A stretch of DNA of 64,000 nt, taken from contig NZ_JABWTA010000001.1 of the NCBI RefSeq assembly GCF_013371495.1, forward strand, positions 2,020,693 through 2,084,692, in the 5' to 3' direction. This DNA is from Altererythrobacter lutimaris. Its GTDB lineage: Bacteria > Pseudomonadota > Alphaproteobacteria > Sphingomonadales > Sphingomonadaceae. Numbering within the stretch: position 1 is the stretch's first letter; the number at the start of each line of letters is the position of its first letter. The position numbers and the translations under genes were made by a program. Below are positions 3,380 to 61,326 of this stretch, piece by piece. Below the pieces are notes generated by a model, which was given only the letters and a program-made list of their open reading frames with translations, had not been told where the DNA came from and made no database searches.

Positions 3380-6135
3380 ACAGCCAGCGGATTTCGAACC
3401 AGCGTGCAATCATCGACCGGCGAAAGCTGGCCGGCGAGATTGCTGCGCTGGTCGAATCCAAAGGCGAGAAAGCGCGCGGTGAGATTGTCGCAAGCCTTCG
3501 CTCAGCACTCGAAGCGGGCAAAGCCGAGATCGCGAAACGGCTGACTGAAAAGCCGTCCGCCGGATATGAATGCACCGCCGCGCAGGCATTTCTGGTTGAT
3601 CAATTACTGCGCATCATCCACGATCATGTGGTCGCGCATGTCTATCCGGTGGCCAATCGCAGCTCAGCAGAGCGGCTCGCGATCCTCGCTGTTGGTGGAT
3701 ATGGCCGAGCAGAGATGGCCCCGCATTCGGATGTAGATATCGCATTCATTACGCCGATGAAGCGCGCGCCGTGGTGCGAGCAAGTCATTGAGGCGATGCT
3801 CTATTTCCTATGGGATTTGGGCCTGAAAGTCGGTCATTCCAGTCGGACTGTCGAAGACACCTTGCGGATGGCGCGTGAAGATCTGACCATCCGCACGGCA
3901 TTGCTCGAAAGCCGTTTCGTGTGGGGTGATGAGGGGCTTTACGAAGAGGCGCGCAATCGCTTCTGGAGTGATGTCGCTAAAGGTACAGAGCGCCAGTTCT
4001 TGTCGGAGAAACTGGTTGAACGTGAAGAACGGCACAAGCGGATGGGCGACAGTCGTTATGTCGTTGAGCCCAATGTTAAAGACGGCAAAGGCGGCTTGCG
4101 CGACCTTCAGACTCTTTATTGGATCGGCAAGTATATACACCAGGTCCGAAGCGGCTCAGAACTGGTCGATGTCGGATTGCTGACAAAGACAGAATATCGC
4201 AGCTTCCGACGCGCGGAAGGTTTTCTGCTGGCCGTCCGATGTCACTTGCACATGATCACCAACCGCGCGGAAGACCGGCTGACCTTCGATCTGCAACGCG
4301 AAGTTGCTGCGCGAATGAATTTTGCGGATCGTCCAGGCAAAAGCGCTGTCGAGCGCTTCATGCAGTTCTATTTCCTGCAAGTAAAGCGCGTCGGCAGCCT
4401 GACTGGCGTGTTCCTCGCGCATATCGACGAACAGCTCGCCAAGAAACGCGAACGCCGAGGGTTCTTTGCGACATGGAACCAGAAGCCTCGCATGGTCAAA
4501 GGCTATCGCGTTTTTGGCGGCAGGATCGAAGCGACGGGAGAAGACTGGTTCAAGCAGGATCCGGTCAGGCTGATCGAAATCTTCCAGATCGCTGAAGTCG
4601 AAGGGCTTGAAATCCACCCTGACACCATGCGCCAGATTGATCGCGAAAGCGCTTTGATCAAGCACGAGGTTCGCCATGATCCGCGCGCAAATGCCCTGTT
4701 TATCGACTTGCTTTCGGGTAGGCGCGATCCGGAGATGGTGCTGCGCTGGATGAATGAAGCCGGCGTCTTTGGCCGTTTTGTGCCGGACTTCGGCAAGGTC
4801 AACGCTCAAATGCAGTTCGATATGTATCACCACTATACGGTCGATGAGCACACCATCCGGGCAATTGGCCTGCTTAGCCAGATTGAGCGGGGCTTGCTCA
4901 AAGGCGACCATCCGCGCGCAAGCAAATACATCCATCATGTCGCCTCGCGCCGTGCACTTTATGTCGCTGTGTTGCTACACGATATCGCTAAAGGGCGCGG
5001 CGGCGATCATTCCGTGCTTGGTGCGGAAGTCGCGCATGAATTGTGTCCGCGTTTTGGCTTGGACGAGCAGGAAACCGAGCTCGTCGCATGGCTGGTGCTT
5101 CAGCATCTCCTGATGAGCTCGACCGCGCAGAAACGCGATTTGACCGACCCAAAAACCATCGAAGACTTCGTGGGCGAAGTCCAAAGCCTCGAACGCCTGC
5201 GCAACCTCGCCATCCTCACTTGCGTGGATATTCGCGCAGTCGGTCCGGGAACATGGAACAGCTGGAAAGGCCAGCTGCTTGGCGAATTGTTCGATGCAGC
5301 CGAAGAACGCTTGCGCCTGGGTCACATGAAACATGGCCGCAAGGAACGGGTCACTGCAAAGAAACAGCTGGTGTCCGAAAGGCTCGGCGAACGCGCTGAC
5401 CTTGTCGGCAAGGTAGGGAAGCTGTTCGCTGACTCTTATTGGATTGCGGAAAGCGAGGATGTGATTGCGCTCAATCTCGTCCAATATGATGCTGCGCGGG
5501 AGCTGGATGAAAGCCTCTCGATCCACTGCCAATATGACGAGGAACGCGGCGCTACCTTCGTCAATGTAATCGCTGCCGACCATCCCGGATTATTCTATCG
5601 CATAGCCGGTGGGATCGCTTTGGCTGGCGCGAACATTATCGACGCCCGGATCCACACTGCCAGGAATGGCTGGGCCGTCGACAACTTCTTGGTCCAGGAT
5701 CCGCATGGCCGACCGTTCAAGGAAGAGCGGCAGCTGGAGCGGCTCAAGACTGCCATTGCCGATGCTCTTGCCAATCGCGGAGAATTGGTCCCGAAATTGG
5801 CTGCGCGCCCTCTGCCGAAAAGTCGCGCAGGAGCTTTCAATATCGCGCCGAGGGTCAGCTTCGACAACAACGCCTCCGGACGATTCACTGTCATTGAAGT
5901 GAGCGCACGCGATCGCACCGCGCTGCTCAACCGCTTGGCAAGAGCGCTATTTGAAGCCAACCTCGTCGTGCAGTCCGCGCATATTACTCACTATGGCGAA
6001 CGCGCTGCCGATACATTCTATGTGACTGATCTGATGGGACAGAAGATCACGTCGGATAAGCGCCTTAAGGAGATCACAGAGCGTCTCCTACAGGCGGCAA
6101 GTGATGAACTTCAGCAACAGCTCGAAGAAGCCTGA
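3376..6135 (+). CDS. glnD: [Protein-PII] uridylyltransferase / uridylyl-removing enzyme
   Basis: GlnD senses glutamine and uridylylates or deuridylylates PII, controlling glutamine synthetase and Ntr genes. At 919 residues it has the full architecture: nucleotidyltransferase motif GGYGRAEMAPHSDVD (107-121), an HD hydrolase domain with LLHDIAKGRGGDH near 534, and two ACT domains after about 740. The start is TTG within the stop of the preceding gene. The N-terminal stretch SNQRAIIDRRKLA matches the usual start region of sphingomonad GlnD, which supports this choice over a later ATG. It fits with gltBD elsewhere in the window as part of nitrogen assimilation. Confidence 0.95.
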   Translation: MNSQRISNQRAIIDRRKLAGEIAALVESKGEKARGEIVASLRSALEAGKAEIAKRLTEKPSAGYECTAAQAFLVDQLLRIIHDHVVAHVYPVANRSSAERLAILAVGGYGRAEMAPHSDVDIAFITPMKRAPWCEQVIEAMLYFLWDLGLKVGHSSRTVEDTLRMAREDLTIRTALLESRFVWGDEGLYEEARNRFWSDVAKGTERQFLSEKLVEREERHKRMGDSRYVVEPNVKDGKGGLRDLQTLYWIGKYIHQVRSGSELVDVGLLTKTEYRSFRRAEGFLLAVRCHLHMITNRAEDRLTFDLQREVAARMNFADRPGKSAVERFMQFYFLQVKRVGSLTGVFLAHIDEQLAKKRERRGFFATWNQKPRMVKGYRVFGGRIEATGEDWFKQDPVRLIEIFQIAEVEGLEIHPDTMRQIDRESALIKHEVRHDPRANALFIDLLSGRRDPEMVLRWMNEAGVFGRFVPDFGKVNAQMQFDMYHHYTVDEHTIRAIGLLSQIERGLLKGDHPRASKYIHHVASRRALYVAVLLHDIAKGRGGDHSVLGAEVAHELCPRFGLDEQETELVAWLVLQHLLMSSTAQKRDLTDPKTIEDFVGEVQSLERLRNLAILTCVDIRAVGPGTWNSWKGQLLGELFDAAEERLRLGHMKHGRKERVTAKKQLVSERLGERADLVGKVGKLFADSYWIAESEDVIALNLVQYDAARELDESLSIHCQYDEERGATFVNVIAADHPGLFYRIAGGIALAGANIIDARIHTARNGWAVDNFLVQDPHGRPFKEERQLERLKTAIADALANRGELVPKLAARPLPKSRAGAFNIAPRVSFDNNASGRFTVIEVSARDRTALLNRLARALFEANLVVQSAHITHYGERAADTFYVTDLMGQKITSDKRLKEITERLLQAASDELQQQLEEA

Positions 6136-9885: not shown

Positions 9886-9991
9886 ATTCTTGAGCGGCGG
9901 CCAAGCCATCCGCCCCCTAACAATTGAACGAAAACAATTTGACCCCGAGTCCGTGAAGATTCATGGTGTGTTCCAACGAGGAGGACCCGCT

Positions 9992-12352
9992 GTGGCAAGC
10001 CGCGCGATCAACACGAAAAAGAAAGCTCCGACCGACTGGAGAGCGGCATTTCGGCGTTCGATGAGCCGTGCTGCGCAAATCACAGGCGCAGGTGTGCTGT
10101 TTGCGGGCATGATCTTCCTGGGGCTGGCGCTCGCCAGTTACACGCAAACCGACCCTTCAGGATCGACCGCAGCCTCTGGCGCAGACATCCAGAACTGGAT
10201 GGGCGCGAGCGGCGCATGGGTTGCGGACAAAGTGCTGAGCGCATTCGGCCTGACCAGCATTTTGCTGCTGCCGCTGCTTTACATCGCATCGCGACGGCTT
10301 TGGCGCGATATTGAAGACGAAGATGCGCCTGAAACGCGGTGGTGGTCTCCATTCTTCATGCTGCTGCTTGCGATGATGCTGCTGTCGAGCGTCCTCGCGC
10401 TTGCCTTTGAAGGTGTGCAAGGCAGTCTGCCTGCACAGACCGGGGGCGTCTCCGGACTTCTGGGTGCATCAGCGATTGAAGCTATTGCCGCGCGCTTTGG
10501 TGAAGGGTCATCGGGATGGATCATCCTCGGTCTTGCTGCGCTATGCCTTGCTGGAGGTGTTGGTCTCCTAACGCGCATTTTCGCTATCGACTGGCGCGTC
10601 TTACTGACCCTGCCCAACTTTGCCGCCCGCTTGATCGCGCCACTGTTTGGCGAGCGCGTTATAGACGAAGATGAAGACGCAATGGCCGCTGCACCACGTG
10701 CCAAGCGCGTTCGCAAGAAAGAGGCTGCTGAGGCTCGGCCCGAACCAGCACCACGCCGCGCGCCTGAAATCACCGACCCGACAGCACCGCCCAAGCCTGC
10801 CAAGCAAGCCAAGCCAAAACAGCGCGACATGTTCGCGACTTTTGAACTGCCGACGCTCGAACTCCTGGCAGACCCGCCCGTCGACAAGGCTCCGAAACTC
10901 GACAAGATGGCATTGGAACGCAATGCGCGGCTGCTTGAGAACGTACTCGACGACTTCAACGTCAAAGGCGAGATCACTGCGGTTCGCACCGGCCCCGTCG
11001 TGACGATGTACGAGCTGGAGCCGGCGCCCGGTATCAAGGCGAGCCGGGTGGTGGGCCTTGCTGAAGACATTGCGCGCAACATGTCTGCCATTTCCGCCCG
11101 TGTCAGCCCGATCCCTGGCAAGACCGTTATGGGCATAGAATTGCCGAATACCGACCGGCAGATGGTATCTTACAAGGAGCTTGCCGCTTGCGAGGCCTTT
11201 GCTGCTTCCAAGGGCACGCTCCCGATTATTCTCGGCAAGGACATCGCGGGCGAACCAATTGTCGCTGACCTTGCCGCCATGCCGCACTTGCTGGTCGCGG
11301 GTACTACAGGATCGGGTAAGTCAGTTGGCCTCAACGCGATTTTGCTGTCGCTGCTCTATCGCTTCACGCCAGCGGAGTGTCGTCTGATCCTGATCGATCC
11401 TAAGGTGCTGGAATTAAAGAGTTATGACGATATTCCCCACCTTCTCGCTCAGGTGGTGACAGAGCCGCACAAGTCCGTGCGCGCGCTCAAATGGGCGGTC
11501 GAGGAAATGGAGCGACGCTATCGCATGATGTCGTCGATCAATTCGCGCAATATCGGCAGTTTCAATGACAAGGTGCGTGCGGCGGCTGCGAAGGGCAAAC
11601 CGCTTGGAAGGCGCGTTTCCACCGGATTTGATCCCGATACTGGCGAAGAGCTCTACGAAGAAGAGCAGCTCGACTACGAACCACTACCGATGATCGTTCT
11701 GATCGTGGACGAGCTGGCTGACTTGATGGTGACGGTCGGCAAGGAAATCGAAGTCTTGATCCAGCGGCTTAGCCAGAAATCGCGCGCCGCGGGCATCCAC
11801 CTGATCATGGCAACGCAGCGTCCATCGGTGGACGTCATTACAGGTGTGATCAAAGCCAACCTGCCCACGCGGATCAGCTTCAAAGTCACGAGCCGTATCG
11901 ACAGCCGGACTATCCTGGGTGAGCAAGGCGCCGAGCAGCTGCTCGGCAAAGGCGACATGCTCTACAAACCCAACACTGGCGCGACTATTCGCGTCCACGG
12001 ACCGTTTGTGTCCGATGATGAAGTCGAGCGCGTAGCCGACTTTTGGCGCGCGCAAGGCAAACCTGAATATATCGACGCGGTCACTGAAGAGCCGGAAGAT
12101 GGCGGAGGCCTCTCTTTTGAAGATGAGCTCACCGCATCCGACAGCCCGGAAGAGCGCAAATATCGTCAGGCCTGTCAGATCGTTATCGAGAACCAGAAGG
12201 CTTCAGGTTCATGGCTCCAGCGACAAATGGGCGTCGGCTATAATACAGCAGCAAAATGGATCGAGCGCATGGAAAGCGAAGGCTTGGTTGGCCCCGCAAA
12301 CCATGTCGGACGGCGTGAGATCTTCCGCGATCAGGACGGCAATCCGATTTAG
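9992..12352 (+). CDS. ftsK: DNA translocase FtsK
   Basis: Septum-anchored hexameric ATPase that pumps chromosome ends apart before division. The 786-residue form has four N-terminal membrane helices (about 25-200), a basic and Pro-rich linker, Walker A GTTGSGKS near 438, Walker B MIVLIVDELADLM near 566, and a C-terminal winged-helix gamma domain (AAKWIERMESEGLVG) that reads KOPS sites. The start is GTG at 9992, placed 7 nt after GAGGAGG. An open extension to a TTG at 9890 has no ribosome site. Confidence 0.95.
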   Translation: MASRAINTKKKAPTDWRAAFRRSMSRAAQITGAGVLFAGMIFLGLALASYTQTDPSGSTAASGADIQNWMGASGAWVADKVLSAFGLTSILLLPLLYIASRRLWRDIEDEDAPETRWWSPFFMLLLAMMLLSSVLALAFEGVQGSLPAQTGGVSGLLGASAIEAIAARFGEGSSGWIILGLAALCLAGGVGLLTRIFAIDWRVLLTLPNFAARLIAPLFGERVIDEDEDAMAAAPRAKRVRKKEAAEARPEPAPRRAPEITDPTAPPKPAKQAKPKQRDMFATFELPTLELLADPPVDKAPKLDKMALERNARLLENVLDDFNVKGEITAVRTGPVVTMYELEPAPGIKASRVVGLAEDIARNMSAISARVSPIPGKTVMGIELPNTDRQMVSYKELAACEAFAASKGTLPIILGKDIAGEPIVADLAAMPHLLVAGTTGSGKSVGLNAILLSLLYRFTPAECRLILIDPKVLELKSYDDIPHLLAQVVTEPHKSVRALKWAVEEMERRYRMMSSINSRNIGSFNDKVRAAAAKGKPLGRRVSTGFDPDTGEELYEEEQLDYEPLPMIVLIVDELADLMVTVGKEIEVLIQRLSQKSRAAGIHLIMATQRPSVDVITGVIKANLPTRISFKVTSRIDSRTILGEQGAEQLLGKGDMLYKPNTGATIRVHGPFVSDDEVERVADFWRAQGKPEYIDAVTEEPEDGGGLSFEDELTASDSPEERKYRQACQIVIENQKASGSWLQRQMGVGYNTAAKWIERMESEGLVGPANHVGRREIFRDQDGNPI

Positions 12353-12522: not shown

Positions 12523-13458
12523 ATGATTAACGCATTGTCCTTTGGCTGGTCGCGCCGAGGTATCGTGCACGCGTTAGCCGCTGGCTTCGCTGCACTTTTT
12601 TCCTCACCTGCCGCTGCGCAGCAGATCAGTACATGGTCGCTTCAACCCGATGCTCGGGTAGAAATCGGCGTGGTAAGCGCGGAAACTGCCACACGCGACG
12701 AGCAAATTGTCGTCAACGGCGATGCCCTCACATTTCGCGGCCAAGTTGGGCTCGATCTGGAGGACGAGAATACGCGTTTCCGCCTTGAAGCTGACCGGAT
12801 TGAAGTGGTCCGCTTAGGCGAAGGGCGCCGCGACACAAATCGTGATCGTATCACAATGCTTGTCGACCAGGAATTCGGCGACGATTGGGAAGTGCAGGTT
12901 CGCGGGCGATACTACGACGATCTCGTTACCGCAGAATCGAGCGATACCGACGAGATCCAGGGCTCTGTCCGCGTGACGTATGAACCCGTACGCGCCCATC
13001 GCCTTCGTGTTCGTGGCACGTGGCGCGAACGCGAATACGACAATCGCGCTGATCCGCAGACGACTGGCAGCGGCCTCCGCGTGGATGTCGGTTATCGCCA
13101 CCGGATCGACCGCTATCATTACATCAATTTCGACTTACGCGCTGAATCGATCGATTCAGCTGATCCTGAATGCGGATATTCCCGCGAGTCAGCGAAAGTC
13201 TCTTACACGCGGCCAATTACCCGCGATCTGCGGATAAGGCCGGCACTGGAGGTATTAGAAACACGGTTTGACGGGCGACTGACGCCTGACGGGGATCGGC
13301 GCAAGGATCGCTTGATCGTCCCCGAACTTGAATTGCATTGGTGGCCAAAGCGTTGGCGCGTGGAAGCTGAAGCGAAGTATATTTTCTCTGACAGCAACCT
13401 CGCAACCCGCCAGCGCGAAGGGTACCGCCTCACTTTGACGGTGGGGTATGTCTTCTGA
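12523..13458 (+). CDS. Predicted outer-membrane beta-barrel of the ATP-grasp/7TM cluster
   Basis: A 311-residue protein I do not recognise by family. It begins with a basic N-terminus, a hydrophobic segment and a cleavage-like SPAAAQQ, so it is exported. The rest is rich in alternating polar/aromatic strands (VQVRGRYYDDLV, LRVRGTWREREY, VDVGYRHRIDRYHYINF) and ends in LTLTVGYVF. The terminal aromatic residue is typical of outer-membrane barrels. The strands suggest roughly 10-12 crossings. It overlaps the following 7TM gene by 11 nt, so the two are almost certainly co-translated and work together. A longer reading from 12415 is possible but would place the signal peptide internally. Confidence 0.75.
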   Translation: MINALSFGWSRRGIVHALAAGFAALFSSPAAAQQISTWSLQPDARVEIGVVSAETATRDEQIVVNGDALTFRGQVGLDLEDENTRFRLEADRIEVVRLGEGRRDTNRDRITMLVDQEFGDDWEVQVRGRYYDDLVTAESSDTDEIQGSVRVTYEPVRAHRLRVRGTWREREYDNRADPQTTGSGLRVDVGYRHRIDRYHYINFDLRAESIDSADPECGYSRESAKVSYTRPITRDLRIRPALEVLETRFDGRLTPDGDRRKDRLIVPELELHWWPKRWRVEAEAKYIFSDSNLATRQREGYRLTLTVGYVF

Positions 13459-14503
13459 GCTGATCAATAAGCTCAAACGCATACGGGAGCGCGCGACTCC
13501 ACAAGTCAGGCGCCCCTTCTACATCGGACTTGTCGTTGGGCTCGCCCTGGCGATTCTTGTCGTGCTCGGCTTCTGGAACACCGGGAGCTTCTTCGCACTG
13601 CCCTCCACATTCGAGGGAACCGCCACTTCATACGCCATTTGGGGTCTCAAACCATCAAACCTCCTGATGGTACTGCCATTGGGCGCTTTCCTCGTCGTTC
13701 TAGTCCGCAGCTTTGTCGGCTTGAAAGCCTTCGGGCTGTTTACGCCGATGCTCATCGCGCTCGCCTTCCTTCAAATTGGCCCGGTGATGGGGCCGATCGT
13801 GCTTGGCACATCGGTCTTGGTCGGAATGATCCTGGCACCTAGCTTGCTTAAGCTGCGCATGACACGTGTGGGCTTCCTCGGCGTACTGATTTCACTGATC
13901 GTGTTGGTGCTTGTCGGCCTGCAGATCGCTCTCGACACTCAGCTGCAAGTCGATGCCTTCCCGGTTGTTGTTTGCGCATTGGTGGTCGAACGTTGGTGGA
14001 AGCAGTGGGAGAAGGACGGCCCGAAAGAGGCTGCGCATATCGCCTTCAACACGTTCATGATCGCGATCGTCATTCAGTTCGTAATGGTGTCGAACCTTGC
14101 CTTGGCCTTCATCGAAGCCTCGCCTTTGCTGATGCCGGCGTTCACCGCGATCGCCATCGCGGTTCTTGGGCGGTATCGCGGGCTGCGTCTCACAGAGCTC
14201 AAACGGTTTGCCCCGATATGGCTCGAGCGACGACGACTGGCCCGCGAAGACCAAGAGCTGGAAGATCAGGAGGTCGAGGATTTCCTTGCTGGACGAAGTA
14301 CCACCGAACTCGCCAAGGAGCGTGCCCCACCGCTCGGCGGCATGTGGGTGATCGAAAAACCAGAGGATTTCGACCCGTCAGCAAAACGGCGCGTTCCTCA
14401 ACCGAGAAACGCACGCGAGGCGCAAGATGCGGCTCGCATTGGCGCGTCTGAGCGCCCGGCAAAGCACAACGCCTGGATCATCCGTTCCAAGGAGGACGTC
14501 TGA
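13448..14503 (+). CDS. 7TM membrane protein of the inactive-transglutaminase (UUP1-like) family
   Basis: A 351-residue integral membrane protein: one helix near 24-46, then about seven more between 70 and 245, then a charged cytoplasmic tail of about 100 residues. The core (VGLKAFGLFTPMLIALAF, MTRVGFLGVLISL) resembles the 7TM domain usually fused to a catalytically dead periplasmic transglutaminase. Here the first helix is followed by only about 25 residues before the 7TM core, so the transglutaminase domain is absent. It overlaps the barrel gene upstream and ends 1 nt before the ATP-grasp gene, which has its ribosome site GGAGGA within this gene's end. Confidence 0.8.
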   Translation: MSSELINKLKRIRERATPQVRRPFYIGLVVGLALAILVVLGFWNTGSFFALPSTFEGTATSYAIWGLKPSNLLMVLPLGAFLVVLVRSFVGLKAFGLFTPMLIALAFLQIGPVMGPIVLGTSVLVGMILAPSLLKLRMTRVGFLGVLISLIVLVLVGLQIALDTQLQVDAFPVVVCALVVERWWKQWEKDGPKEAAHIAFNTFMIAIVIQFVMVSNLALAFIEASPLLMPAFTAIAIAVLGRYRGLRLTELKRFAPIWLERRRLAREDQELEDQEVEDFLAGRSTTELAKERAPPLGGMWVIEKPEDFDPSAKRRVPQPRNAREAQDAARIGASERPAKHNAWIIRSKEDV

Positions 14504-14504
14504 C

Positions 14505-15485
14505 ATGCGGATCGATATTCGCAAGATCGTCGCTGAAAGCCAAGTCGAGCGCGGTGTGAGGCAGGAGATTGTCGCTCAAGCACCGCAGGAAATGCGTCGG
14601 CCCGGCGGAGCGCCGCCGCGCCCGCTTGATGAGATACTCGGCATCAATATGCGCAACGCGCTGATTGCTAAATACAATCCGCGCAAAGCGATTGAACGTG
14701 CACGCGACAAAGTGGCCGCCAAGGTCGCATTGGAGGCAGCAGGAATTGCTTGTACCGGCACTGTTGCCGTCATCGATGATCACCAGAAATTGATGGCTTT
14801 CAAACCAACTCGTGACATGCCTGACAGCTGGGCGATCAAGCCGGCGCGCGGCTCGCAAGGCGATGGCATTCTGCTCGCTGTGCGGCGCGAAGGTGACATC
14901 TGGTACAAAGGCTCAGGCATGCCGATGGATGAGGACTACGTCCTCAACCACATCCGCAAGGTTGTCGATGGCGGGTTTTCTGGTGACGCAACAGCAGAAG
15001 ATGCGGCATTGATTGAGCCGCTCATTCGCGCTGACCCAGCTCTTGCAGACCTGGTGCCGGAAGGCTTGCCCGATCTGCGCGTGATCTGCCTGAAAGACGA
15101 GCCTCTCATGGCAATGGTTCGCCTTCCCACCAATGAGTCTGACGGCAAAGCCAATTTGCACCAGCGCGCGATTGGCGCCGGCGTTTCGCTTGAAACAGGG
15201 CGCATCACCCGCGCGCTAGTCAAAGGTACGCCCATCACGCATCATCCCGACACAGGCGTCAATCTGATCGGGTTTGAAATACCGGGCTGGGATCGCGTGC
15301 TGGAGCTCGCCAGCAAATGCGGTCCGGCAATCGGGCTTGGTTATTCCGGTTCAGATATCGTACTCGACGTCAATGACGGGCCGCTCATTATCGAAGTGAA
15401 TGCACACCCGGGCATCGAAATCCAGAATATCAACCAGCTTGGCTTGAAGGCCCAGATGGAAGTTCTCGGTGAAGTGCTGAAATAG
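14505..15485 (+). CDS. ATP-grasp ligase, alpha-L-glutamate ligase-like
   Basis: A 326-residue cytoplasmic ATP-grasp enzyme of the RimK-related glutamate-ligase-like type, predicted to form an amide bond through an acyl-phosphate. ATP-binding elements are WAIKPARGSQGDGI near 110 and the metal-binding strand IIEVNAHPGIEIQN near 302. LGINMRNALIAKYNPRKAIERA near residue 45 matches this subfamily. It is the last gene of the barrel-7TM-ligase set. In relatives the ligase and 7TM-transglutaminase are paired, often with a retropepsin-like protease. No such protease is found here. The substrate is unknown. Confidence 0.88.
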   Translation: MRIDIRKIVAESQVERGVRQEIVAQAPQEMRRPGGAPPRPLDEILGINMRNALIAKYNPRKAIERARDKVAAKVALEAAGIACTGTVAVIDDHQKLMAFKPTRDMPDSWAIKPARGSQGDGILLAVRREGDIWYKGSGMPMDEDYVLNHIRKVVDGGFSGDATAEDAALIEPLIRADPALADLVPEGLPDLRVICLKDEPLMAMVRLPTNESDGKANLHQRAIGAGVSLETGRITRALVKGTPITHHPDTGVNLIGFEIPGWDRVLELASKCGPAIGLGYSGSDIVLDVNDGPLIIEVNAHPGIEIQNINQLGLKAQMEVLGEVLK

Positions 15486-59706: not shown

Positions 59707-59938
59707 GTTTTGTCCATACTTGCCAGCGACTTTCCTACCGCAAGCCTCGTAAGGCAAGCCATGGCAAATGAGATATGCCACTTCATTCAGGCAACCGTAT
59801 ACGCCGTTGAACCCCGATCGCGCAAAGTCACACTTTTTGCGCGCCATTGGAAGATTACGCTCTGTTTTTCAGGCAGTTGACGGGGTGGCAGCTTTTTCGA
59901 AAAGCGCAGTGAGCGTATCGCCCGGGCGCATCATCCGT

Positions 59939-60625
59939 TCAGGCCGACCAGTCAACCACGCCGCGACCATGCCGTTCCAAAAACGCATTCGCCTGGCTGA
60001 AAGGGCGCGTCCCAAAAAAGCCACTATGCGCGGAAAGAGGGCTGGGATGCGCGCTCGTCAGCACAAGATGATGTTCGCCAGCGCCAAGACCCTTCACCCG
60101 GCTCGCTTTCTTGCGCGCATGGCTGCCCCACAGGATGAAAACCGTTGGATCACCGCGATCGACAACCGCTTGCACGACTGCATCGGTGATCGCGTCCCAG
60201 CCGCGTCCGGCATGGCTGCCTGCTTGCCCGGCTTCGACTGTCAGCGTGTTGTTCAGAAGGAGCACGCCCTGTTCGGCCCAGCCCGACAAATCGCCGTGAT
60301 CGCGGCGCGGAATACCGCAATCACTCTCCAGCTCCTTGTAGATGTTGACCAGCGATGGCGGCGTTTTGACCCCGTGCGCAACGGAAAAGCACAGCCCGTG
60401 CGCTTGCCCCGCTCCGTGATACGGGTCTTGCCCGAGGATCACGACGCGCACCTGGTTGAGCGGCGTCATCGCGAGCGCGGCAAGGCGTTGGCCGCGTGGA
60501 GGGTAAATGACCTTTCCGGCCTCCTCTTCTGCGCGCAGCCATCCGCCCAGCTTTCGCGCTTCCGGCGTTGCCAACACAGGCTCCAGCGCGTCCTTCCAGC
60601 TTTCAGGGATACTCTCAGCGGACAT
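59939..60625 (-). CDS. ung: Uracil-DNA glycosylase
   Basis: A 228-residue family 1 UDG that removes uracil from DNA. The catalytic motif VVILGQDPYHGAGQAHGL near 60-77 contains the general-base Asp, and LTSAHPSPLSAHSGFFG near 190 supplies the His and minor-groove loop. Length and motifs are complete. Confidence 0.96.
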   Translation of the reverse strand: MSAESIPESWKDALEPVLATPEARKLGGWLRAEEEAGKVIYPPRGQRLAALAMTPLNQVRVVILGQDPYHGAGQAHGLCFSVAHGVKTPPSLVNIYKELESDCGIPRRDHGDLSGWAEQGVLLLNNTLTVEAGQAGSHAGRGWDAITDAVVQAVVDRGDPTVFILWGSHARKKASRVKGLGAGEHHLVLTSAHPSPLSAHSGFFGTRPFSQANAFLERHGRGVVDWSA

Positions 60626-60705
60626 GGCTCAAGAATAGGCCTCTGCCGCCGCAACCTCCACCACCCCTTTCCCTCTTTCCCCAATCGGCCTAATGGACTG
60701 AGACA

Positions 60706-61326
60706 ATGACCGTACATTTTCATGAAGAAGACCTGCCAGCGGGCGTCCTTGAAGGCGACGCGCCGCTCGCTGTGGATACAGAAACCATGGGCCTCATCAC
60801 GCATCGCGACCGGCTTTGCGTGGTCCAGATAAGCGATGGCACAGGCGATGAGCATCTGGTGCGCTTTGGCCCGGAGAGCCACTATGCCGCGCCCAATCTG
60901 AAAGCCATTCTGGCAGACCCAAACAGGATCAAGCTCTATCATTTTGGCAGGTTCGATCTCGCGGCAATCGAGTACTATCTTGGCGTGATGGCGGCGCCGG
61001 TGTTCTGCACGAAGATCGCGAGCAAGCTGGTGCGCACCTATACAGATCGTCACGGTCTGAAGAATCTTGTCGAGGAATTGCTGGGTGAGAACCTCTCCAA
61101 GCAGCAGCAATCGTCTGACTGGGGCGGACCGGAATTGAACGATGCGCAGCGCGAATATGCAGCAAGCGATGTTCGCTATCTCCACCGTATGCGCGAAGAG
61201 CTGATCAAACGCCTGGAGCGCGAAGGGCGTATGGAGATCGCGCAGGCCTGCTTTGACTTCCTGCCTACCCGCGCACGGCTCGACATTGCAGGATGGGCAG
61301 ACCACGACATTTTCAGCCATTCATGA
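60706..61326 (+). CDS. rnd: Ribonuclease D, short form
   Basis: A 206-residue 3'-5' exonuclease of the DEDDy family: Exo I AVDTETMGLITHRDRLCVVQ near 23, Exo II YHFGRFDLAAIEYYLG near 80, and Exo III YAASDVRYLHRMREEL near 157. The C-terminal HRDC domains of enterobacterial RNase D are absent, a form common in alphaproteobacteria. It precedes lptC by 34 nt on the same strand. Confidence 0.92.
   Translation: MTVHFHEEDLPAGVLEGDAPLAVDTETMGLITHRDRLCVVQISDGTGDEHLVRFGPESHYAAPNLKAILADPNRIKLYHFGRFDLAAIEYYLGVMAAPVFCTKIASKLVRTYTDRHGLKNLVEELLGENLSKQQQSSDWGGPELNDAQREYAASDVRYLHRMREELIKRLEREGRMEIAQACFDFLPTRARLDIAGWADHDIFSHS

Follow-up and report, generated by a model that had tools for sequence, protein, structure and literature searches.

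The three-gene locus and its proteins

The window analysed here, a 64,000-nucleotide stretch of the Altererythrobacter lutimaris genome (2.95 Mb; contig NZ_JABWTA010000001.1, positions 2,020,693 to 2,084,692), carries on its forward strand three tightly packed genes, for a predicted outer-membrane beta-barrel, a seven-transmembrane (7TM) protein and a putative ATP-grasp amide ligase of RloC/RimK-like type. The barrel gene (12523..13458, ATG at 12523 and stop ending at 13458) encodes an arginine-rich protein of 311 residues that ends in YVF. The 7TM gene (ATG at 13448, stop at 14503) overlaps it by 11 nt (13448..13458), and the ligase gene (ATG at 14505, stop at 15485) follows after a 1-nt gap. 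A first-pass annotation of the same letters had given these coordinates, the overlap and the gap, and all of them hold. Longer open reading frames (ORFs) exist for the barrel (from TTG 12415) and for the ligase (from ATG 14427).

For comparison we use 114 genomes of the genus (the genus sample) and 76 loci from named genomes (the named-genome sample); the genome holding the window is G000. In the 52 Erythrobacteraceae-type loci of the named-genome sample that hold both genes, the 11-nt overlap of barrel and 7TM genes is possible with an in-frame start in 38, and in the other 14 the nearest 7TM start comes after a 1-nt gap; the junction is therefore not due to chance. No further gene belongs to the operon in the window, and no tetratricopeptide-repeat (TPR) gene is found at the locus. 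A promoter scan gives three promoter-like sites against 1.4 expected, none of them directly upstream of the operon, and a terminator scan gives none above chance.

The barrel protein is predicted to form a closed 14-strand barrel, judging by its strand pattern and its matches to solved 14-strand barrels. The AlphaFold model, built from 36 homologues, has 14 strands of 13-18 residues each after an N-terminal helix at 8-26 (mean pLDDT 89.1, pTM 0.78). Residues 1-34 (12523..12624) make up a probable signal peptide, judged by eye and from the model helix, with low model confidence up to residue 34 and a cleavage site placed by eye. Together with the even strand number and a C-terminal aromatic residue, this completes the hallmarks of outer-membrane barrels: the last residue is phenylalanine in 52/52 Erythrobacteraceae-type loci (YVF 25, YAF 18, HAF 5, HVF 3, RVF 1). 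The first-pass annotation had described a secreted protein with barrel-like strands and a YVF end, and had proposed structure prediction as a check; the model bears the description out, and a non-barrel fold was not found.

Foldseek ranks OmpG and CymA at the top. With VIA-align, CymA scores Z 22.6 (3.1 A over 266 residues) and OmpG Z 21.7 (2.9 A over 250 residues), and AlgE is among the lower matches (Z 15.0). Since identity to OmpG and CymA is 7-9%, the likeness is one of shared fold, not of shared family. The best Pfam match is DUF481 (E 1.2e-4, 22.6 bits against a cut-off of 21.1, over 60 residues), so the barrel has no strong family assignment, and a search of the PDB found no sequence relative of it. 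Even at E up to 10, the barrel profile finds no match in its own genome other than itself. The DUF481 match and the two closest folds would suit a porin for anions or osmotic stress, one that shares only its regulation with the ligase and 7TM genes, in a hypo-osmotic response, and does not handle their product. The Pseudomonas operon described below is linked to hypo-osmotic tolerance (PMC12239564, in the part of the paper available), which would suit such a porin as well. We consider this reading unlikely, for reasons that come with the distribution of the gene.

The 7TM protein matches PF14402 (7TM_transglut) at E 7.3e-31, with 108 bits against a cut-off of 25. Among named NCBIfam models the nearest is RloB (NF052267), with a score below the NCBI cut-off; because this model aligns at 315-503 of 508 only, the protein is like the C-terminal part of RloB and the periplasmic inactive-transglutaminase domain is missing. 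A Pfam scan likewise gives no PF14400 match. The protein consists of an N-terminal helix (18-44), a loop of about 28 residues, a helix (73-90) that starts the 7TM block, and a C-terminal tail. Its structure model has a pLDDT of 81. The best VIA-align match, with Z 6.1 across 118 residues, could reflect no more than a common arrangement, and at E up to 0.4 the PDB yields no relative by sequence.

The ligase matches PF14397 (ATPgrasp_ST) above its cut-off, at E 1.9e-60. Residues K69, K112, D284, E297 and N299, which we take to be the ATP-grasp catalytic and metal-binding residues, are invariant with a RimK-like protein encoded elsewhere in the same genome (L011). At E up to 0.001 there are four solved relatives, all of them RimK-type ligases, and the nearest named relatives are Altererythrobacter and Erythrobacter records, which would place the organism in the Erythrobacteraceae. 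Up to E 1, nothing in the ligase matches PgsB, in a search confined to the locus, the rest of G000 not having been searched for PgsB. No secretion signal is seen by eye. All this suggests a RimK-type, RloC-like amide ligase, for which glutamate would be the substrate. By their family matches, the 7TM protein and the ligase thus correspond to the RloB/RloC pair of a published operon, with the transglutaminase domain and RloA absent, an identification that goes beyond the first-pass annotation. The layout which that annotation had drawn, with one protein each in the outer membrane, the inner membrane and the cytosol, fits.

Linkage in relatives and a second synthase

The three genes are strongly linked, so that a lack of conserved linkage, which the first-pass annotation had named as refuting its reading, was not found. 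In the genus sample the barrel is matched in 57/114 genomes and the 7TM protein in 48/114, and at 51 of the 54 7TM places a barrel match lies 182-209 bases away. One exception is a 7TM place at a contig end (G180, L155); in another (G230), the contig with the barrel breaks off within a 7TM gene (L115), and the 7TM match lies on a different contig. The third (G228, L154 4304-6946) has the 7TM and ligase genes next to an integrase-core ORF and no barrel; its ligase frame matches the family at 11-125 of 317 only, and it is apparently a decayed copy. Where a genome has two 7TM matches, as six do, it also has two barrel matches.

In the named-genome sample, 55/76 loci are of Erythrobacteraceae type with at least part of the 7TM gene, and 52 of these have the barrel directly upstream (cut in L027, split in two frames in L053). 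In the three without it (L016, L022, L040) the contig ends within the 7TM gene; a further locus, cut inside the ligase (L081), was left out of the 55. The remaining 20 loci are distant, some with short flanks, and two of them (L076, L077) hold barrels of the wider family. In one locus, RimB-like and RimK-like genes stand directly upstream of the barrel (L045 2559-3943; the scan covered L045 only), and L047, L048 and L066 look similar.

A barrel match without a 7TM match is seen in eleven genus genomes. In one of these the barrel match is weak (G179, E 5.8e-4), and in another the barrel stands beside an apparently broken 7TM frame (G225, L099). The other nine are exactly the 9/114 genomes with CapC (PF14102); their barrel matches range from E 2e-51 to 1e-40. 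CapC and the barrel lie about 4.2-4.4 kb apart on the same contig in six of the nine and on separate contigs in three (G197, G199, G233); in G197 a PgsB-like fragment (E 9.9e-6) is beside the barrel. In one cluster (G091, L174) the CapC protein, of 860 aa, matches CapC twice (E 1.7e-40), and a 721-aa protein matches PgsB (TIGR04012, E 2.6e-52). The two barrel types, one associated with 7TM genes and the other with PgsBC-type genes, are homologous (hhalign 100%, E 1e-44, 281 columns).

7TM and CapC occur together in no genome (0/48 with 7TM, Fisher 0.01), and G000 has no CapC match. When the barrel is set against '7TM or CapC', 55 of the 114 genomes have both, two have a synthase only, two a barrel only and 55 neither (Fisher 3e-27); both tests treat genomes of one genus as independent, uncorrected for relatedness. 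Here the porin reading meets its difficulties: a general porin would not be expected to be absent from 55 of the 57 genus genomes that lack a synthase, to accompany two unrelated synthases, or to be duplicated along with one of them in six genomes out of six.

The two barrel types can also share a site. In the window the three genes follow an FtsK-like gene (9890..12352, forward strand), a neighbour outside the three-gene system, and in G233 the PgsBC-associated barrel comes directly after an FtsK gene, at the same site (L140). In five of the six same-contig genomes a receiver-type protein encoded on the stretch between barrel and CapC overlaps or abuts the barrel gene; the one scanned is Response_reg. 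Between barrel and CapC all six encode a protein of about 900 aa, with no Pfam match in the one scanned (L134). By eye we took it for a histidine kinase; with that Pfam result, and NCBIfam giving only PhoR at E 8e-4 in a relative (L139), it is left unnamed. The G091 cluster as a whole (L174 227-9048 and L134 5001-9627) has the barrel and receiver protein facing the ~900-aa protein, a receiver and the CapC protein; it also holds the PgsB-like ligase and three other proteins, of which two match nothing and the third matches HEAT weakly.

Barrels related to that of the window also go with 7TM/ligase genes in three further proteobacterial families, two of them alphaproteobacterial, and in one Nitrospirota record and one Krumholzibacteriota record. 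The f8 and f123 families have the transglutaminase, 7TM and ligase domains fused into a single polypeptide, with a TPR protein and then the barrel encoded behind it; the stretch at L189 4583-10096, and likewise L190 and L192, looks like a polymer export operon. The gene order in f188 is transglutaminase-7TM, ligase, TPR, barrel. The Krumholzibacteriota barrel (L076) comes after a ligase-TPR fusion, and in the Nitrospiraceae locus L077 the barrel is followed by a retropepsin-7TM fusion (4887-5972) and then the ligase, so that RloA-like and RloB-like parts can share one chain. By profile comparison these barrels appear to be joined to the window type by a chain of similarity: hhalign gives 90% (E 1.5e-6, 172 columns) between the window and f8/f123 types and 99% (E 1.2e-20, 337 columns) between the f8/f123 and f188/L077 types, and only 33% (E 4.5e-4) directly between the window and f188/L077 types, with TonB receptors as a control at about 1%. 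Of 200 genomes, 4 have the f188-type barrel, and these are the f188 members in which a 7TM match is present (G684, G715, G750, G782). The f8/f123-type barrel is met in 3/385 genomes, each with a 7TM match; two belong to f123, and in the third, G012, the match is a weak one (E 8.5e-4) to its window-type barrel.

Loci of the canonical type behave differently. None of 23 (L145-L153, L156-L169) has a barrel of this family within 5 kb. A retropepsin motif, marking an RloA-like ORF, lies beside 16 of the 23 (our own regular expression, same strand, within 4.5 kb; the seven misses may be motif variants). Across eight loci of f8, f123 and f188 the counts are 0/8 for the motif and 6/8 for the barrel; the other two are cut short by contig ends, and in one of these genomes (G715) the barrel is matched on another contig. 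No barrel accompanies the 7TM/ligase pairs in nine records from Dojkabacteria, other Patescibacteria, Woesearchaeota or Actinomycetes, groups not known to have an ordinary outer membrane, nor is one seen beside the ligase and 7TM matches of an Ilumatobacteraceae locus with 2.8 kb of upstream sequence (L065).

Three observations stand apart. In a Dojkabacteria record, one gene (L073 5977-7428) joins an ATP-grasp ligase with a retropepsin-like domain (PF05618, E 2.6e-6) in a single protein, and a 7TM gene adjoins it. Some f188 CapC stretches (L196-L200) hold very large ORFs, of 1809 and 1873 aa. In the window itself, 59768-60709 is a 313-aa ORF with 15.3% arginine, the highest among 44 window ORFs of more than 200 aa, and may be a chance frame.

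A possible exit for an acidic chain

In Pseudomonas aeruginosa, which has an rloABC operon, loss of all three RloA proteases abolishes growth without salt; deleting rloB, rloC or both in the triple protease mutant restores hypo-osmotic growth fully and other defects partly, and RloA cleaves reporters carrying 8 or 10 glutamates (PMC12239564, in the part of the paper available). Because the rloB and rloC deletions rescue the protease mutant, these results fit a product of RloBC that is harmful in the periplasm and is cleared by RloA.

In the scheme proposed here, the cytosolic ATP-grasp ligase of the window would join glutamate or a similar acidic amino acid through amide bonds, the 7TM protein would carry the chain across the inner membrane, and the arginine-rich barrel would release it through the outer membrane and so prevent build-up in the periplasm. 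In the canonical operon, secreted RloA, a polyglutamate-cutting protease, would do the clearing instead. We give an even chance to the proposal that the barrel exports a polyglutamate-like anion made by the ligase/7TM pair. What two unrelated amide ligases that keep the same kind of barrel have in common is their product, and it is most likely this product that the barrel acts on; given a RimK-like synthase in one case and a PgsBC-like one in the other, a glutamate chain would be the simplest candidate. The first-pass annotation had suggested an amide-linked product, moved or attached across the envelope. That suggestion fits, with both product and transport conditional; the barrel family common to the PgsBC-type cluster now makes a polyglutamate-like anion the likely product. 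That the chain is poly-alpha-glutamate, that the 7TM protein is its inner-membrane carrier, and that the barrel exports, anchors or vents it, we infer.

The predicted barrel fits an anion path, because its conserved strand arginines mostly point into the lumen. Sixteen strand arginines are kept in at least 90% of 36 sequences, and 15 of them face the lumen by hydrophobic alternation, with arginine at 24% of inward and 6% of outward positions. This assignment was biased, as it used the hydrophobicity of the charged residues themselves; repeated without them, it places 14 of the 16 inward (21% of inward and 8% of outward positions).

Several points weigh against the export proposal. The lumen assignment comes from alternation and not from coordinates, and favours polar residues inward; in its charge-blind form the signal differs by <0.5 in five of the 14 strands and by <0.8 in two more. 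The mature barrel is net negative (mean -11), and Glu/Asp make up 19% of inward positions, which tempers the fit to an anion path. The ligase, at E 1.5e-73 with TIGR02291, its nearest named NCBIfam model, scores 247.5 against a cut-off of 314.2, and the PgsB-like protein of L174 is also below its NCBI cut-off (177.8 vs 222.7), its product being presumed. The 7TM model has no clear fold match (best PDB Foldseek E 1.3), and a distant kinship of the 7TM protein with PgsC/CapC, proposed from the by-eye likeness of some stretches, is unsupported (hhalign 0.7% and 0.3%, with a CapC-like alignment of four close sequences only). The rlo paper does not name the RloBC product in the part available (PMC12239564). 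Among f188 genomes, 7TM matches (200 searched) and CapC matches (G676, G680, G753, G760, G828; 299 searched) do not overlap, and the CapC stretches fetched (L196-L200) hold no barrel of this family, so that only one genus shows the exchange of synthases around a shared barrel. The porin reading, too, counts on this side.

The same co-occurrence of barrel and synthase would be expected if the barrel were an anchor or target, with glutamyl chains tethered to it or to envelope material and displayed by it. A protein-linked product is plausible, as RimK glutamylates the C-terminus of a protein (PMC12239564, in the part available). Direct modification would be hard, however, for a ligase without a visible secretion signal acting on a secreted barrel, and a conserved C-terminal phenylalanine would be expected if the tail were an assembly signal rather than a site of glutamylation. 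We regard an anchor as rather improbable.

Decidedly improbable, in our judgement, is that the same three-layer route serves another amide-linked molecule, such as a peptide, a lipid-like amide or a cell-wall modification. PF14397 is named for an association with sugar transfer, and in Shewanella disruption of an inactive-transglutaminase-7TM gene raised vesicle yield (PMC12096838, in the part available), both of which would suit such a molecule. The exchange with a PgsC-type cluster points instead to glutamate chains, as do the RimK-type ligases that are the nearest solved relatives and the preference of RloA for polyglutamate (PMC12239564, in the part available).

If the export proposal is right, the barrel names the compartment that the product of RloBC-type pairs should reach, and the shared barrel family links that product to polyglutamate synthesis. 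It would supply a missing outer-membrane exit for peptide-type polymers and account for the presence of RloA in some lineages and of a barrel in others. We hold more tentatively, at somewhat less than an even chance, the wider view that this export route is widespread and so far undescribed, and that its polymer, amide-linked and anionic, is most likely poly-alpha-glutamate. One arginine-rich barrel family would then be the exit for two unrelated synthases, RloBC-like and PgsBC-like, swapped between sister species, RloA would be an alternative to the exit, and Gram-negative bacteria would make and export polyglutamate by a three-layer machine.

Comparison with known systems

What is new here is the barrel as a third part of an RloB/RloC-type system and its link to polyglutamate synthesis. 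Among the literature matches listed, no title or abstract opening describes a barrel with 7TM/ligase genes; a 2009 survey of amidoligases (doi 10.1039/b917682a) may mention such neighbourhoods.

With the 14-strand pores OmpG and CymA, the window barrel shares a predicted fold (Z 20-23); it differs in its low identity to them, in its arginine content and in being tied to a synthase. RimK/RimB glutamylation resembles the window system in the ATP-grasp alpha-L-glutamate ligase fold and its shared residues, and RimK synthesises poly-alpha-L-glutamate (PMC11957791, in the part available). The RimB-like and RimK-like pair of this genome sits elsewhere, however (L011), without barrel or 7TM partners in the stretch seen. 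Only one protein of the genome matches PF05618: 169 aa long and with no signal peptide by eye, it is encoded next to a RimK-like gene away from the locus.

The PgsBC(A)/CapBC(A) systems share with the window the proposed class of product and, through sister genomes, a homologous barrel beside a PgsC/PgsB-like cluster. Genes for poly-gamma-glutamate (gamma-PGA) polymerase are reported from the sphingomonad Novosphingobium PP1Y (PMC4059872, in the part available). The window itself has ATP-grasp and 7TM proteins and no PgsB or PgsC, and PgsB is Mur-ligase-like.

TPR-plus-barrel polymer exporters include AlgK/AlgE, BcsC and PelB. Relatives of the window system come close to this arrangement, with 7TM/ligase, TPR protein and barrel in a row (L189, L190, L192, L170), whereas the window locus has no TPR gene and its polymer would be a peptide, not a sugar.

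In rloABC, finally, the likeness extends to the operon arrangement as well as to the two proteins, the window 7TM protein resembling the C-terminal part of RloB and the ligase resembling RloC. The window locus lacks the inactive-transglutaminase domain of RloB, no gene for a secreted retropepsin RloA is found between its neighbours, and a barrel gene comes first. On these family matches, the window system reads as a barrel-bearing variant of the RloB/RloC system.

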